Shown: piece by piece, positions 34,601 through 49,600 of the stretch | Layout: each line of letters opens with the position of its first letter | How positions within the stretch are numbered: the first letter of the stretch is position 1 | Source: Phymorhynchus buccinoides | Lineage: Eukaryota > Mollusca > Gastropoda > Neogastropoda > Raphitomidae | Assembly (NCBI GenBank): GCA_017654935.2 | Contig: CM065704.1 | Location: 23,374,266-23,438,265, forward strand | DNA length: 64,000 nucleotides | Reading direction: 5' to 3' | Translations under genes and position numbers: made by a program | Notes under the pieces: generated by a model | Seen by the model: the letters and a program-made list of their open reading frames with translations, nothing else | Databases searched by the model: none | What the model was told of the DNA's origin: nothing

Positions 34601-37600
34601 CTTTTCCCCCTTGAGTCGCACATTTTCCCGTTTGACGTAGGTCAGAGCCTCTTTCAGGGATTCCATCTACAAGGGAAAGCGTGCCAGAGTATAACATACA
34701 TAGCAGAGAGAACTACAATAAAGCAATTATCCAACACAAAGGAAAATTTATATGACAGAAAGGCAAGCACTCACACACACACACATACATACACATACAT
34801 AAAAAGGCTTGTAGCTTACTCCTTTATCGTCAATAAAGATCATTTTGACTTGACTTGACTTGACATGCATGCACATATGCAAATACATTTGCATGTACAC
34901 ACACATGCATGCAAACACAAACATACACAGAAACACACACACACACATTTACATATAGACACACACATACACACACTGGGGTGTTTAATGGTCTTAACCC
35001 AGGGTAAGCAGTTCTATATTTTCTATAAGGTACATGCGCCCTCCTAGTTCCGCTGAGATTTATCGTCAGAAGTGGTGTCTGCGATGTACCAGACCAGATC
35101 CAGACACACACACACACACATACATATGGACACACACACACATATTCATACACACACATATGGACACACACACATTCATACACAAACATATGGACACACA
35201 CACATGTGCACATAAACCAGAGTGACACACACACAATTCATACAACACACACACATGCAGAGTGACACACACAGACATAACACACACAATTCATACAACA
35301 CACATGACACACACAATTAATACAACACACACAATGACACACACACAATTCATTCAACACACACACACACAATTCATTCAACACACACTGGGACACACAC
35401 AATTCATACAACACACACAATGACACACACACAATTCATTCAACACACACACACACAATTCATACAACACACACAATGACACATACACAATTCATACAAC
35501 ACACACAATGACACATACACAATTCATTCAACACACACAATGACACACACACAATTCATTCAACACACACACACAATTCATACAACACACACAATGACAC
35601 ATACACAATTCATTCAACACACACAATGACACACACACAATTCATTCAACACACACACACACACAATTCATACAACACACACAATGACACACACAATTCA
35701 TACAACACACACAATGACACACATACAACACACACAATTCATACAACACACACAATTCATACAACACACACAATTCATACAACACACACAATTCATACAA
35801 CACACACAATGACACACACACAATTCATACAACACACACAATGACACACACACAATTCATACAACACACACAATTCATACAACACACACAATGACACACA
35901 CACAATTCATTCAACACACACAATTCATTAAACACACACAATGACACACACACAATTCATTCAACACACACAATGACACACACACAATTCATTCAACACA
36001 CACAATTCATACAACACACACAATGACACACACAATTCATTCAACACACACAATGACACACACAATTCATTCAACACACACAATGACACACACACAATTC
36101 ATTCAACACACACAATTCATACAACACACACAATGACACACACACAATTCATTCAACACACACACGCACACAATTCATACAACACACACAATGACACACA
36201 CCGACACACTCCAAACATATGAGGCGTTTTTTCTCAATGACACATACACAATTCATTCAACACACACAATGACACACACACAATTCATTCAACACACACA
36301 CAATTCATACAACACACACAATGACACACACACAATTCATTCAACACACACAATGACACACACAATTCATACAACACACACAATGACACACACAATTCAT
36401 ACAACACACACAATGACACACACAATTCATACAACACACACAATGACACACACACAATTCATTCAACACACACACACACACAATTCATACAACACACACA
36501 ATGACACACACCGACACACTCCAAACATATGAGGCGTTTTTTCTCAGCTGACCTGTTGCACCAGGTGTGGGGCATCACTCAGGCTGGACGTGCTGCCGCT
36601 GATACTGCCCACCGGACTGATGGCCGGGCCACCTGACCACACACACACACCATTCATCAACAACTTCTACTCTCTTGTACTGCATTGCAATACCTACATT
36701 TCAAAACCCTGCCAGCTAAAATGGGATGAGTTTGGGGGCGACAACCAGATTAATGACTGGTTATTTTTGGTTGGGAGTCCTCATTGCTTCAGGGGTAAGG
36801 GGACAGCTAACAAGCACATAGCACATGCAATTTTCATATGTTCATATACTCCCAGAGAGATCAAGTTTTCATGACAATGCATTGTCATGGAAAGAGCATG
36901 TCCCTCGTCAGTCCCTCCAGCAGGGTCTTCATGGGAATGCGCGCTATAGAAATAGCCAATATCATCATCACTGTCAGTGACTGGCTCGTCCAGAGGATTG
37001 CTCTATGAGCCCCTCCAGCAGGGTCTTCATGGGAATGCGCGCTATAGAAATAGCCAATATCATCATCACTGTCAGTGACTGGCTCGTCCAGAGGATTGCT
37101 CTATGAGCCCCTCCAGCAGGGTCTTCATGGGAATGCGCGCTATAGAAATAGCCAATATCATCATCACTGTCAGTGACTGGCTCGTCCAGAGGATTGCTCT
37201 ATGAGCCCCTCCAGCAGGGTCTTCATGGGAATGCGCGCTATAGAAATAGCCAATATCATCATCACTGTCAGTGACTGGCTCGTCCAGAGGATTGCTCTAT
37301 GAGCCCCTCCAGCAGGGTCTTCATGGGAATGCGCGCTATAGAAATAGCCAATATCATCATCACTGTCAGTGACTGGCTCGTCCAGAGGATTGCTCTATGA
37401 GCCCCTCCAGCAGGGTCTTCATGGGAATGCGCGCTATAGAAATAGCCAATATCATCATCACTGTCAGTGACTGGCTCGTCCAGAGGATTGCTCTATGAGC
37501 CCCTCCAGCAGGGTCTTCATGGGAATGCGCGCTATAGAAATAGCCAATATCATCATCACTGTCAGTGACTGGCTCGTCCAGAGGATTGCTCTATGAGCCC

Positions 37601-46600: not shown

Positions 46601-49600
46601 AGACAGAAACTCACCTGAGGCATTCGTACGGCCCAGAGTCTTCTTTAGCGTACACTTTGTTGACGGCTTCGTAGGCCAGCTCTTCCATCTTGTGCGCCAA
46701 CAGACCCTCTTTGTCTGCACAGACACAGAAACTCACCTGAGGCATTCGTACGGCCCAGAGTCTTCTTTAGCGTACACTTTGTTGACGGCTTCGTAGGCCA
46801 GCTCTTCCATCTTGCGCGCCAACAGACCCTCTTTGTCTGCACAGACACAGAAACTCACCTGAGGCATTCATACGGCCCAGAGTCTTCTTTAGCGTACACT
46901 TTGTTGACGGCTTCGTAGGCCAGCTCTTCCATCTTGCGCGCCAACAGACCCTCTTTGTCTGCACAGACAGAAACTTACCTGAGGCATTCATACGGCCCAG
47001 AGTCTTCTTTAGCGTACACTTTGTTGACGGCTTCGTAGGCCAGCTCTTCCATCTTGCGCGCCAACAGACCCTCTTTGTCTGCACAGACACATCGGACATG
47101 CTGTACACTGTTGGGTGAACGCCAGAAAGTACCATCACGAAAGGAAATGAAGAAGGCCGATAGCGACGTCTGGCTTTAACCCGACAAAATGAGACGGTAT
47201 TTTCTCTAGAAAAAGGTTCGGAAATAAAAATAGCTGCTTACAATAGAGCACTGTTAGGGAATTTGTGAGCTCGTATGACACCCCCCCCCCTCCCTCCCCG
47301 AGAATTTGTGAGTGCATAAATGGCGTGCGTGTTGAAAGGGTGAGGTGGGTGGGGGTCTGTTTGTCCATGCCTTGATTTAAAATAAAAAAAATTCTTTGAA
47401 ATGGTGTCAATAAGTGTATGTGAAAGGGGTGAGTGGGATGAACGGCGTGAGCATTTTTTTTTTTTTTCTCTCGTAATATTTGTAAAGCGCTCTGAGGATG
47501 ATCTTTTTTTTATCATCGAAGAGCGCTATAGAAGCTTTATTTATTATTATTATTATTACTAGGCCTGTAGTCATGAGTGCGGCTAAGACAACTTAATCCG
47601 GGATGGAAAATGCAAATTAGTCTACGAATCTGATTGGCAGTTTAGACTAATTTGACATTTTCCATCCCGGATTAGTTGTCTTAGCCACACTCATGACTAC
47701 TGGCCCTGGCTGCTGTCATTACTTTGTGAAACATCTTTCATATATATATATTAGAAAATATTTGATGCTTGCAACATCATATTAGTTTGATAAACTTTAC
47801 AGATACGAGTCCATTTCTTCTGAAAAATCTTCTCTTAAAGTTTAAGTTGCTTCCCTTGTCTTAAGTCTTTTCTTAATTAAGTTACTATATTATTTCTTAA
47901 AGACTTACCACACGCACAAACAAAAGAAAAAAAAAGAAGGATGTTGCCACATGCGTCAACTTCTGTCCTTGAATGATGATGTGTATCAATATTTAATAAA
48001 TTCAGTGTGTAGTTTTGTGCCCAAATTAAGACACATGTAATTCTTGACAAATATTTAAATCCAGTCAATATAAAATTAAACGATTCCTGCACAAACGTAG
48101 AGACCAATAAAACGCTTTTTGACAAACTGATTAGCCAAGAGAGATATATCTGCTGAAAAATAAACTAGACATTTCAAGACAAATATGAGAAACACCTTTC
48201 AACAAGCTCACTAAAATCGCACCAATCTAGGTACCTGGTACTAAAAATAATGACAAACAAATGACACACACGTGAACAAACTGCTAGGTACTGGGGGGGT
48301 CTTCCATACAAATAGTTCCCCCACCTTCTGGAAGTTCTGTACTTGTAACTTCCTCTAATCTGTCTCTCTCTTTGACTCTACCTTTTTCTTTGCTTCGTGT
48401 CATCTACTATCTTTCTGACTTTTTGGCCCGGCCCATTCTCCTGGCTTTTTTTCAACAAAAATTCTTCCATATAGTTATCTCCTTTGAGCTCCTCCGAAAT
48501 CGGAATGTGTCGGCTGAATGCGGCGAGAACACTCAGAAAATTCACAATAATTTTTTTTGTCCCAATGTAATCTTTCTTTTGTAAGGTAAAGGTTTTGTTC
48601 TTTTAATCTTAAAACATCGGCTACCTCAAAATAATATTTCGAGTCCTTTCAAATTCGCCTTACAAGATTTCCAATCCTTTCCTTTATTATTTCCATCTAT
48701 CCTACAACATGCCACGAACGAGGTAAAATAATGTTGCTAAATACTGGGACGGAGTACGGGGAGTTTCAATGAAGGAAATATAAACATATAAATTGCCCAA
48801 CCATGCACTTTTAACCCTTTCACTTTCACTGCCGATGTCGCATTTTTGCACCACAGTGATTTAGCACCCATGTCATCAAAAGCCTTGAAATCGGGGTCTG
48901 TTATCCAATGATCTTGTGTTCTTAATTTGGGGCAGTAAGGATAAGCCCTATTCTAAGCATGTCACAGATAAACCCCCAATATTGCAGATTAGTTCTTTTC
49001 TGTACCCTTGTAAGTTTAATGGAAAATTGTGGTTCAAAAATGGCTGGTGAGACTAACATATAAGGACACTGTTAACATGGGCACAAATCTGCAAGCTAGA
49101 GACGAGAAAAAATATAAAATATAAAAGCAAAATATGCATAGATTTGTGGTACTGTGCTGGTCATTAGAGATAACATTAATCATTATTTCATATAGACTGT
49201 TGCTTAAGATACATTTAAAATGAAACAGTTTTTAATCTGGGGAGGTTACGAGGCTTAGAAGCTTATCTCACAAACTGTACTGATCTTTAAAAGCAATCAA
49301 AATTTTGTGATGAGTTAAAAAGAATGAACAGACAGTCGTGTGTGTGTGTGTGTGTGTGTGTGTGTGTGTGCGTGTGCGTGTGCGTGTGCGCATGCATGCA
49401 CACACACACACACAGACAGACACACACTCTCTCTCTCTATTCATCTCAGAAAATGTAGACATAATCAGGTAAGAGAGTAGCGGGTACTAATCGTCTTCAC
49501 CATACAGGATCATGGATCATGCAAATATCAATGGATGAAATCCACAGTGGGGATTTGTCGTTCATCTGATGCGCCAGCCAACAACAACCGCGGGTCAAAT

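Follow-up and report, generated by a model that had tools for sequence, protein, structure and literature searches.

Tandem repeats and duplications that cross exon–intron boundaries are already known as single cases, as described in the portions of five reports drawn on here (PMC2812944, PMC4974935, PMC9013439, PMC12783039 and PMC4039745). In the relevant passages of De Grassi and Ciccarelli (2009; PMC2812944), variable internal tandem repeats occur where exon meets intron in human genes located within segmental duplications, and 162 alignments contained such repeats before manual inspection, with 27 intron modifications after it. The stretch analysed here (64,000 nucleotides of contig CM065704.1 of the snail Phymorhynchus buccinoides, hereafter the window) carries DCTN1 (dynactin subunit 1, p150Glued) on its minus strand, identified by full-length homology and a continuous reading frame, and in this gene and in a sample of other genes of this genome minisatellites cross splice junctions more often than randomly seeded arrays would. 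Our results support a recurrent, junction-biased duplication process in DCTN1 and the sampled genes. Among the papers listed in searches of open-licence PubMed Central, none reported junction-biased minisatellites, which is no proof of absence.

The snail arrays, detected with Tandem Repeats Finder (TRF), consist of head-to-tail units of tens of bp in many copies and are thus minisatellites, and in DCTN1 and other genes they form internal tandem repeats at an exon–intron boundary whose unit includes the boundary. They share with the repeats of PMC2812944 the position of minisatellites across such boundaries, where exon or intron length was changed in the human genes; according to the passages of that paper, its units average 30 bp, are repeated 4 times and lie in recently duplicated genes, whereas the junction units described here measure ~40–180 bp, reach up to ~18–20 copies, lie in conserved genes and over-represent the junction. 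A tandem duplication crossing an intron–exon boundary and carrying splice signals along is likewise described in part of PMC4974935, but there a single duplication made a spliced intron, whereas here arrays are at hand and are known from DNA alone. Earthworm metallothionein genes (PMC12783039), also from an invertebrate, resemble the snail locus in combining intronic minisatellite-sized arrays with spare copies of an exon, and RNA evidence in that report places duplications of the fourth exon outside the final transcript; unlike the snail arrays, the intronic repeats are not described as built on splice junctions in the passages concerned. The CeRep25B minisatellites of C. elegans (PMC4039745) are also associated with splicing regions, but, as far as the excerpts of that study go, they form one family of repeats that is over-represented close to regions of alternative splicing, whereas each snail array derives from its own local junction.

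Arrays on splice junctions of DCTN1

The whole DCTN1 model has 35 exons with GT–AG borders and 1319 codons plus a stop, running from 102,125 to 22,511 when the numbering of the window is continued upstream. Exons were mapped stepwise (13, then 2 more, then the remainder in 100 kb of upstream DNA), so that the window holds the 3' part, exons 21–35 (15 exons, 22511..62448, minus strand; 517 codons, no stop before the last, GT–AG in the model), and exons 1–20 lie outside it. The gene is located on G000:C25 of an assembly of 2.12 Gb in 3962 contigs. Its C-terminal 467 aa match the solved dynactin subunit 1 with E=1e-78, and the nearest relatives over this piece are Babylonia areolata (89%), Nucella (85%) and Littorina (81%); Pfam assigns this 467-aa segment to no family, but the relatives nevertheless carry dynactin domains in precomputed annotation. 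Babylonia areolata has two DCTN1 proteins, P0018 and P0022, on two large contigs. For comparison 54 related proteins were used, 52 of which extend to exon 24. The array thresholds for DCTN1 were 3 copies and a length of 150. Donor scores are approximate, resting on base frequencies that we take to be those of vertebrates and not of this snail, and the boundaries of coiled coil 2 are likewise assumed.

Exon 24 has been multiplied whole, with both splice sites, as the preliminary description held for 46.4–47.1 kb. Six copies occupy 46382..47089 (minus), five of them with AG and GT, separated by spacers of 20 or 22 nt; the first copy (46979..47078, minus, 100 nt, donor GTAAGT) corresponds to about residues 857–890 of the solved dynactin subunit 1. 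Copies 1–5 retain acceptor and donor, with donor scores of 12.0–12.7, the upper value being the top among 12 DCTN1 donors scored, and copy 6 has lost its donor. The first three copies encode the same peptide, copy 4 differs by one residue and copy 5 by two, and read-through past donors 1 and 2 runs into a stop in frame. Five of the six copies are thereby complete, with splice sites and in the same phase, like mutually exclusive exons; the row of complete near-identical exons resembles the steric type treated in parts of PMC9013439, PMC5740500 and PMC7969005. The last two of these quote a donor-to-branch-point limit of ~50 nt, under which the exon 24 spacers fall as in the steric type; by these published limits the copies should not be joinable, so that at most one would be used and new spliced introns should not form between them. 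The exon 24 copies differ from mutually exclusive exons in encoding nearly the same peptide and in being seen so far only at the genomic level. Exon 24 was present twice in none of the 52 related proteins of other species that reach it, and none of 40 scored genome matches gave a second full-length place for 46300–47100. Between exons 23 and 24 stands a candidate alternative micro-exon (33 nt, 56151–56183, minus) whose peptide is identical to that in Nucella P0019, and at least 5 extra residues are found at its position in 27 of the 54 related proteins; PMC3583065 (2012) states in one passage that, beyond vertebrates, the remaining species it analysed yielded no alternatively spliced dynactin1 isoforms.

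At exon 26 (42133..42261, minus) the acceptor has been arrayed, in agreement with the earlier reading of 42.3–43.1 kb: 18 TTTCAG acceptors in 45-nt units, with one step of 86, fill 42261..43077 (minus), and the last abuts the exon exactly. Counting upstream from the exon, the first 14 acceptors keep the reading frame and meet no stop, and the three most distant ones do not keep the frame. Since this array is intron except for 1 exonic nt, no exon coding coiled coil 2 is copied there, and the claim that three arrays copy such exons does not extend to it. The exon 27 end with its donor (exon at 40438..40580, minus, donor GTAAGT) forms the array correctly placed at 39.7–40.4 kb, where 10 copies including the real one (39738..40496, minus) repeat a 78-nt unit made of the last 62–65 exonic nt and ~15 nt of intron. 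The real donor GTAAGT scores 8.6, eight copies carry GTAAAT (5.3) and the last carries GTTAGT (4.4). Most interior copies are closer to each other than to the real exon, and a reading frame continued through the array encounters a stop at the donor.

Exon 28 (39414..39556, minus) has extra copies of its end (the last 59 nt) at ~39.30, 38.50, 38.17 and 37.92 kb. Two of them, with an intact donor, lie outside the array: c1 (39246..39304, minus) is a near-identical 59-nt end with an acceptor-like CTCAG and the donor GTCAGT, and c2 (38438..38496, minus) is diverged, with 7 synonymous and 2 non-synonymous differences. From the last of the four, a decayed exon 28 end, stems a 98-bp array (36913..37909, minus; 10.2 copies, 100% matches), the donors of which read GTCACT and score −0.7 against 6.2 for the real exon 28 donor, so no working donor has been multiplied. 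The view that an exon end with its donor is arrayed at 36.9–37.9 kb is therefore right as to the origin in exon 28, by way of a decayed intermediate, and wrong as to the donors, which are dead; the wider claim that four exons have had a splice site multiplied stands for exon 24 with both sites, the exon 26 acceptor and the exon 27 donor, and for exon 28 with the same reservation. The copy c2 could replace exon 28 in frame (59 versus 143 nt, matching phases), giving a protein 28 residues shorter, and the excess of synonymous differences has P 0.024–0.038 under neutrality since birth, changes on the functional branch included. The residues lost in such a short form are absent from none of the 54 related proteins, and c2 as a short alternative form of exon 28 is only suggestive. 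The predicted protein P0017 of a relative (from ENA) has exon 28 sequence after a translated tandem repeat, a hint that another snail may carry an array in the same intron.

In the half of the gene that lies upstream of the window, five of 12 arrays span a junction. The exon 18 end with its donor is present with 11 donors including the real one, all CAG/GTAAGG, and the exon 17 end with 6 donors, all GAG/GTGAGA; the exon 9 array has 4 donors, the exon 7 donor array consists of units that are mostly intron, and the exon 5 array repeats an acceptor plus ~66 nt in ~6 copies. The exon 20 end with its donor occurs three times, below the array list. With arrays also on exons 5, 7, 9, 17 and 18, the clustering in coiled coil 2 that had been pointed out is not special. 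Self-comparison gave at least one extra local copy for 12 of the 35 exons, and all the extra exon copies printed (up to four per exon) cross the junction, donor copies lying downstream and acceptor copies upstream. The exon 18 array (68608–69171 in continued coordinates, 48/54-nt units) looks open in frame by eye, and the length of the junction-derived unit is a multiple of 3 in 6 of 9 cases (P 0.042).

Excess over random seeding in DCTN1 and other genes

The main null model treated each array as one unit seeded randomly in the gene with arrays collapsed. Across the whole of DCTN1, 8 of 22 arrays cross a junction against 1.79 expected (P 1.7e-4), and other thresholds gave 7/19 (P 4.5e-4), 6/18 (P 0.002) and 8/21 (P 1.5e-4). 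Restricted to the window, the count is 3 of 10 arrays directly crossing a junction against 0.73 expected (P=0.029), or P=0.0035 when the exon 28-derived array is counted. When the gene was compared with itself, a local copy reaching across the junction turned up for 14 of 68 junction windows, where a copy-weighted intron control gave 6.7% (P 1.5e-4), and exons 1–20 taken alone have 10 of 39 junctions copied (P 2e-4); a 5-nt rule was applied, which the exon 26 acceptor fails, so that it is uncounted.

Exons with kinase and GTPase motifs, whose meaning we presume from general knowledge, served as a sample of other genes. The 38 catalytic-loop exon loci of the kinase sample comprised all 12 of one search and the first 30 of 52 of another, with 4 shared, and became 34 distinct loci once L038, L049, L054 and L056 were dropped as the same gene or a near-copy. 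The GTPase sample consisted of 15 loci chosen from 52 distinct ones, without tandem motif copies and before arrays were viewed. The array thresholds of the kinase sample (copies ≥2.5, length >100) were looser than those of DCTN1 and were set after viewing four loci, and the null model for the sampled loci assumed one 150-nt exon per locus.

Among the 34 kinase loci, 6 of 14 arrays lie on a focal exon junction against 1.24 expected (P 5.8e-4), on the acceptor side at L020, L021, L046 and L055 and on the donor side at L034 (2.8 copies) and L037. The L021 focal array copies the exon start in decayed form and goes only ~3 nt beyond the junction, and L050 and the final unit of L034 look decayed as well. 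With its three motif copies, L055 had a higher likelihood of being sampled. Another five kinase arrays can be read as adjacent kinase exons carrying a splice site, namely acceptor plus exon in L021 and L023, exon end plus donor in L039 and L055, and a decayed one in L050; against solved kinases the peptides of the L021 and L039 arrays gave E about 1e-8 and E 0.002, and the L055 array peptide joined to its focal exon matched ribosomal S6 kinase. Including these, 11 of 14 kinase arrays are on junctions against 2.5–3.7 expected if each locus has two or three exons (P 1e-6 to 2.2e-5). Two of 6 GTPase arrays lie on a focal junction, one repeating an acceptor and exon start in 12 copies (L060) and the other an exon end with GTGAGT in ~20 copies (L067). 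Together, 8 of 20 kinase and GTPase arrays are on a focal junction against 1.76 expected (P 1.2e-4), or 7 of 17 at the DCTN1 thresholds (P 5.5e-4), with the five neighbouring-exon arrays scored as misses in both counts. Arrays at L042, L043, L048, L062, L064, L065 and L071 were off recognised junctions.

Tandem motif copies no more than 500 bp apart were found, from coordinates alone, at 1 of 50 kinase loci and at 4 of 52 GTPase loci, three of which are probably paralogous. L057 and L058, fetched as motif-clustered and kept outside the counts, are an array and a pair of an exon end with its donor. At G000:C31:10006287-10121825 there are three neighbouring places, each with 5–7 tandem copies of the WDTAGQE motif, and the one fetched is an array of an exon end with its donor; should these places prove to be duplicated genes, they would offer a means of dating the array.

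Of the two explanations offered in the preliminary description, the recurrent process at exon edges is thus borne out by material beyond the window, namely the 5/12 arrays and 10/39 junctions upstream in DCTN1 and the 8/20 (or 7/17) arrays in other genes. The claim of more junction arrays than chance would give holds likewise under random seeding in the window, upstream and in the other genes, but not when arrays are placed at full length, and several points weigh against it. With full-length placement in the window (13-exon model), 3.5 arrays are expected to touch an exon and 3 do so, and without weighting a local copy is present for 31.6% of random intron windows and for 20.6% of junctions. 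Both of these nulls were set aside, because array length reflects expansion rather than seeding and because expanded arrays are counted repeatedly, occupying so much intron that the unweighted figure is high. The sample of other genes is small: GTPases alone are weak (P 0.06 for 2 of 5 arrays), leaving out L021 raises P to 8.7e-4 (20 arrays) or 0.0037 (17), removing two hits gives 0.0052 or 0.019 and removing three gives 0.024 or 0.076, and the neighbouring-exon assignments of L023 and L050 were made by eye from translations only. Base composition, instead of the junction, could also be the driver, as junction-derived arrays (GC content 0.45–0.59) are richer in GC than unique intron (0.41) and most other arrays (12 in all, 0.30–0.52), and exons stand at 0.59.

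Origin of the junction arrays

It is fairly probable that these minisatellites are born at splice junctions, where junction-spanning duplications would arise or be kept more often than at random positions, be tolerated and then expand within the intron. Short tandem duplications would span the exon–intron junction with ~0–100 exonic nt and 15–80 intronic nt, and would arise or persist several times above the expectation for random positions. They could be tolerated because an intact exon, its splice site included, stays beside the neighbouring exon, duplicated donors landing downstream in the intron and duplicated acceptors upstream. Freed from coding constraint, the spare intronic copies might expand and decay as other minisatellites do, and splicing would mostly ignore them, either because the real site is stronger, or by the position that yields a short exon, or through the 20–22 nt spacing. 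That each duplication leaves an intact exon and is therefore tolerated would explain why the copied pieces include the junction and lie on the intron side. Tolerance leaves the excess over random seeding unexplained, so a bias at exon edges or at exon-like sequence is needed. Both this duplication bias and the neutrality for splicing are presumed here, and the cause of the bias might reside in properties of the DNA at exon edges or in a copying step linked to transcription or RNA.

The nearest competitor in kind is the proposal that GC-rich, non-repetitive exon sequence is array-prone anywhere and that purifying selection removes exon-internal arrays, so that those crossing junctions remain although the junction itself plays no special part. 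It fits the higher GC content of junction arrays and exons relative to introns and the finding that exon-interior windows had a local copy in 1 of 9 only, and an exon-internal duplication would alter the protein; high exonic content is nevertheless unneeded, as the exon 26 array with its 1 exonic nt and the mostly intronic exon 7 units illustrate, and we regard the proposal as unlikely, if worth keeping in view. Selection for splice-site multiplication, whether for robust splicing or for isoforms, was the other explanation originally put forward and now appears quite improbable. Its candidate isoforms would be the short exon 28 form through c2, n x 15 aa insertions through the acceptors of exon 26 and exon 18 extensions, and the uniform donors of exon 18 (11/11) and exon 17 (6/6), the 7/9 synonymous differences and matching phases of c2 and the open frame of the 14 nearest exon 26 units are all in keeping with it. 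High copy identity, however, may just reflect recent expansion, and selection does not sit well with the weakened GTAAAT donors of exon 27, the dead GTCACT donors of the exon 28 array, the decay of some arrays in other genes, or the related proteins, none of which lacks the residues of the short form (0/54) or has a doubled exon 24 (0/52).

Chance combined with tolerance, in which arrays are random and DCTN1 happens to hold many, would be consistent with a window-only P of 0.029 in a window picked by a reader seeking oddities, with the cruder full-length and unweighted nulls, and with an array density of 2.76 per 10 kb within DCTN1 (22511–102125) against 1.33 and 0.81 in the flanks, a ratio of 2–3; replication upstream of the window and in other genes makes it very improbable. 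An assembly artefact is scarcely credible, as the copies of many arrays differ in sequence or unit length and similar arrays stand on several other contigs, even if the 98-bp array, 100% matched across 10 copies, is of the kind an artefact could produce.

A broader form of the junction-born model, a genome-wide and perhaps still active junction-copying process in this snail lineage, with near one in ten coding junctions bearing an array or spare copy, is evenly poised between holding and failing; junctions with a local array or copy number 6 of 68 focal ones in kinases, 2 of 30 in GTPases and 14 of 68 in DCTN1. If true, this lineage would have a source of minisatellites targeted to splice junctions, with a possible link to transcription, methylation of exons or RNA-templated repair, and would offer an ongoing natural experiment on how the spliceosome handles ten or more identical sites. 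Arrays with five to ~twenty near-identical donors, acceptors or exons are natural tests of splice choice, as to position versus strength, steric limits and exon definition. A mutational bias of this kind would help to explain how tandem exon duplications, alternative sites and certain new introns originate, a matter for which one usually has to argue from isolated ancient events. In such genomes, junction arrays would further interfere with the annotation of genes and the mapping of short reads.

Other features of the window

Two arrays contain no recognised splice site. Downstream of the donor of exon 29 (36553..36632, minus), a TG-rich 32-bp array (35132..36511, minus) includes a 54-bp copy of donor-proximal intron, as had been said of 35.1–36.5 kb, though the donor itself is not included. 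In the 3' flank, a 65-bp array (21863..22195, minus) had been thought to begin at the stop codon; its TRF start lies ~315 bp beyond it, with older diverged copies, recognised by eye, in between. Seven AATAAA signals stand at 21659–22457 in this flank, several of them inside repeats, so polyadenylation signals may likewise be multiplied.

Elsewhere in the window, fragments of reverse-transcriptase genes (RVT_1) lie on the plus strand at 401–2193 and 5112–5795, two of three being below the curated cut-off. A coding-like 67-bp segment at 10819–10952, belonging to another gene or a pseudogene, is tandemly duplicated with 97% matches.

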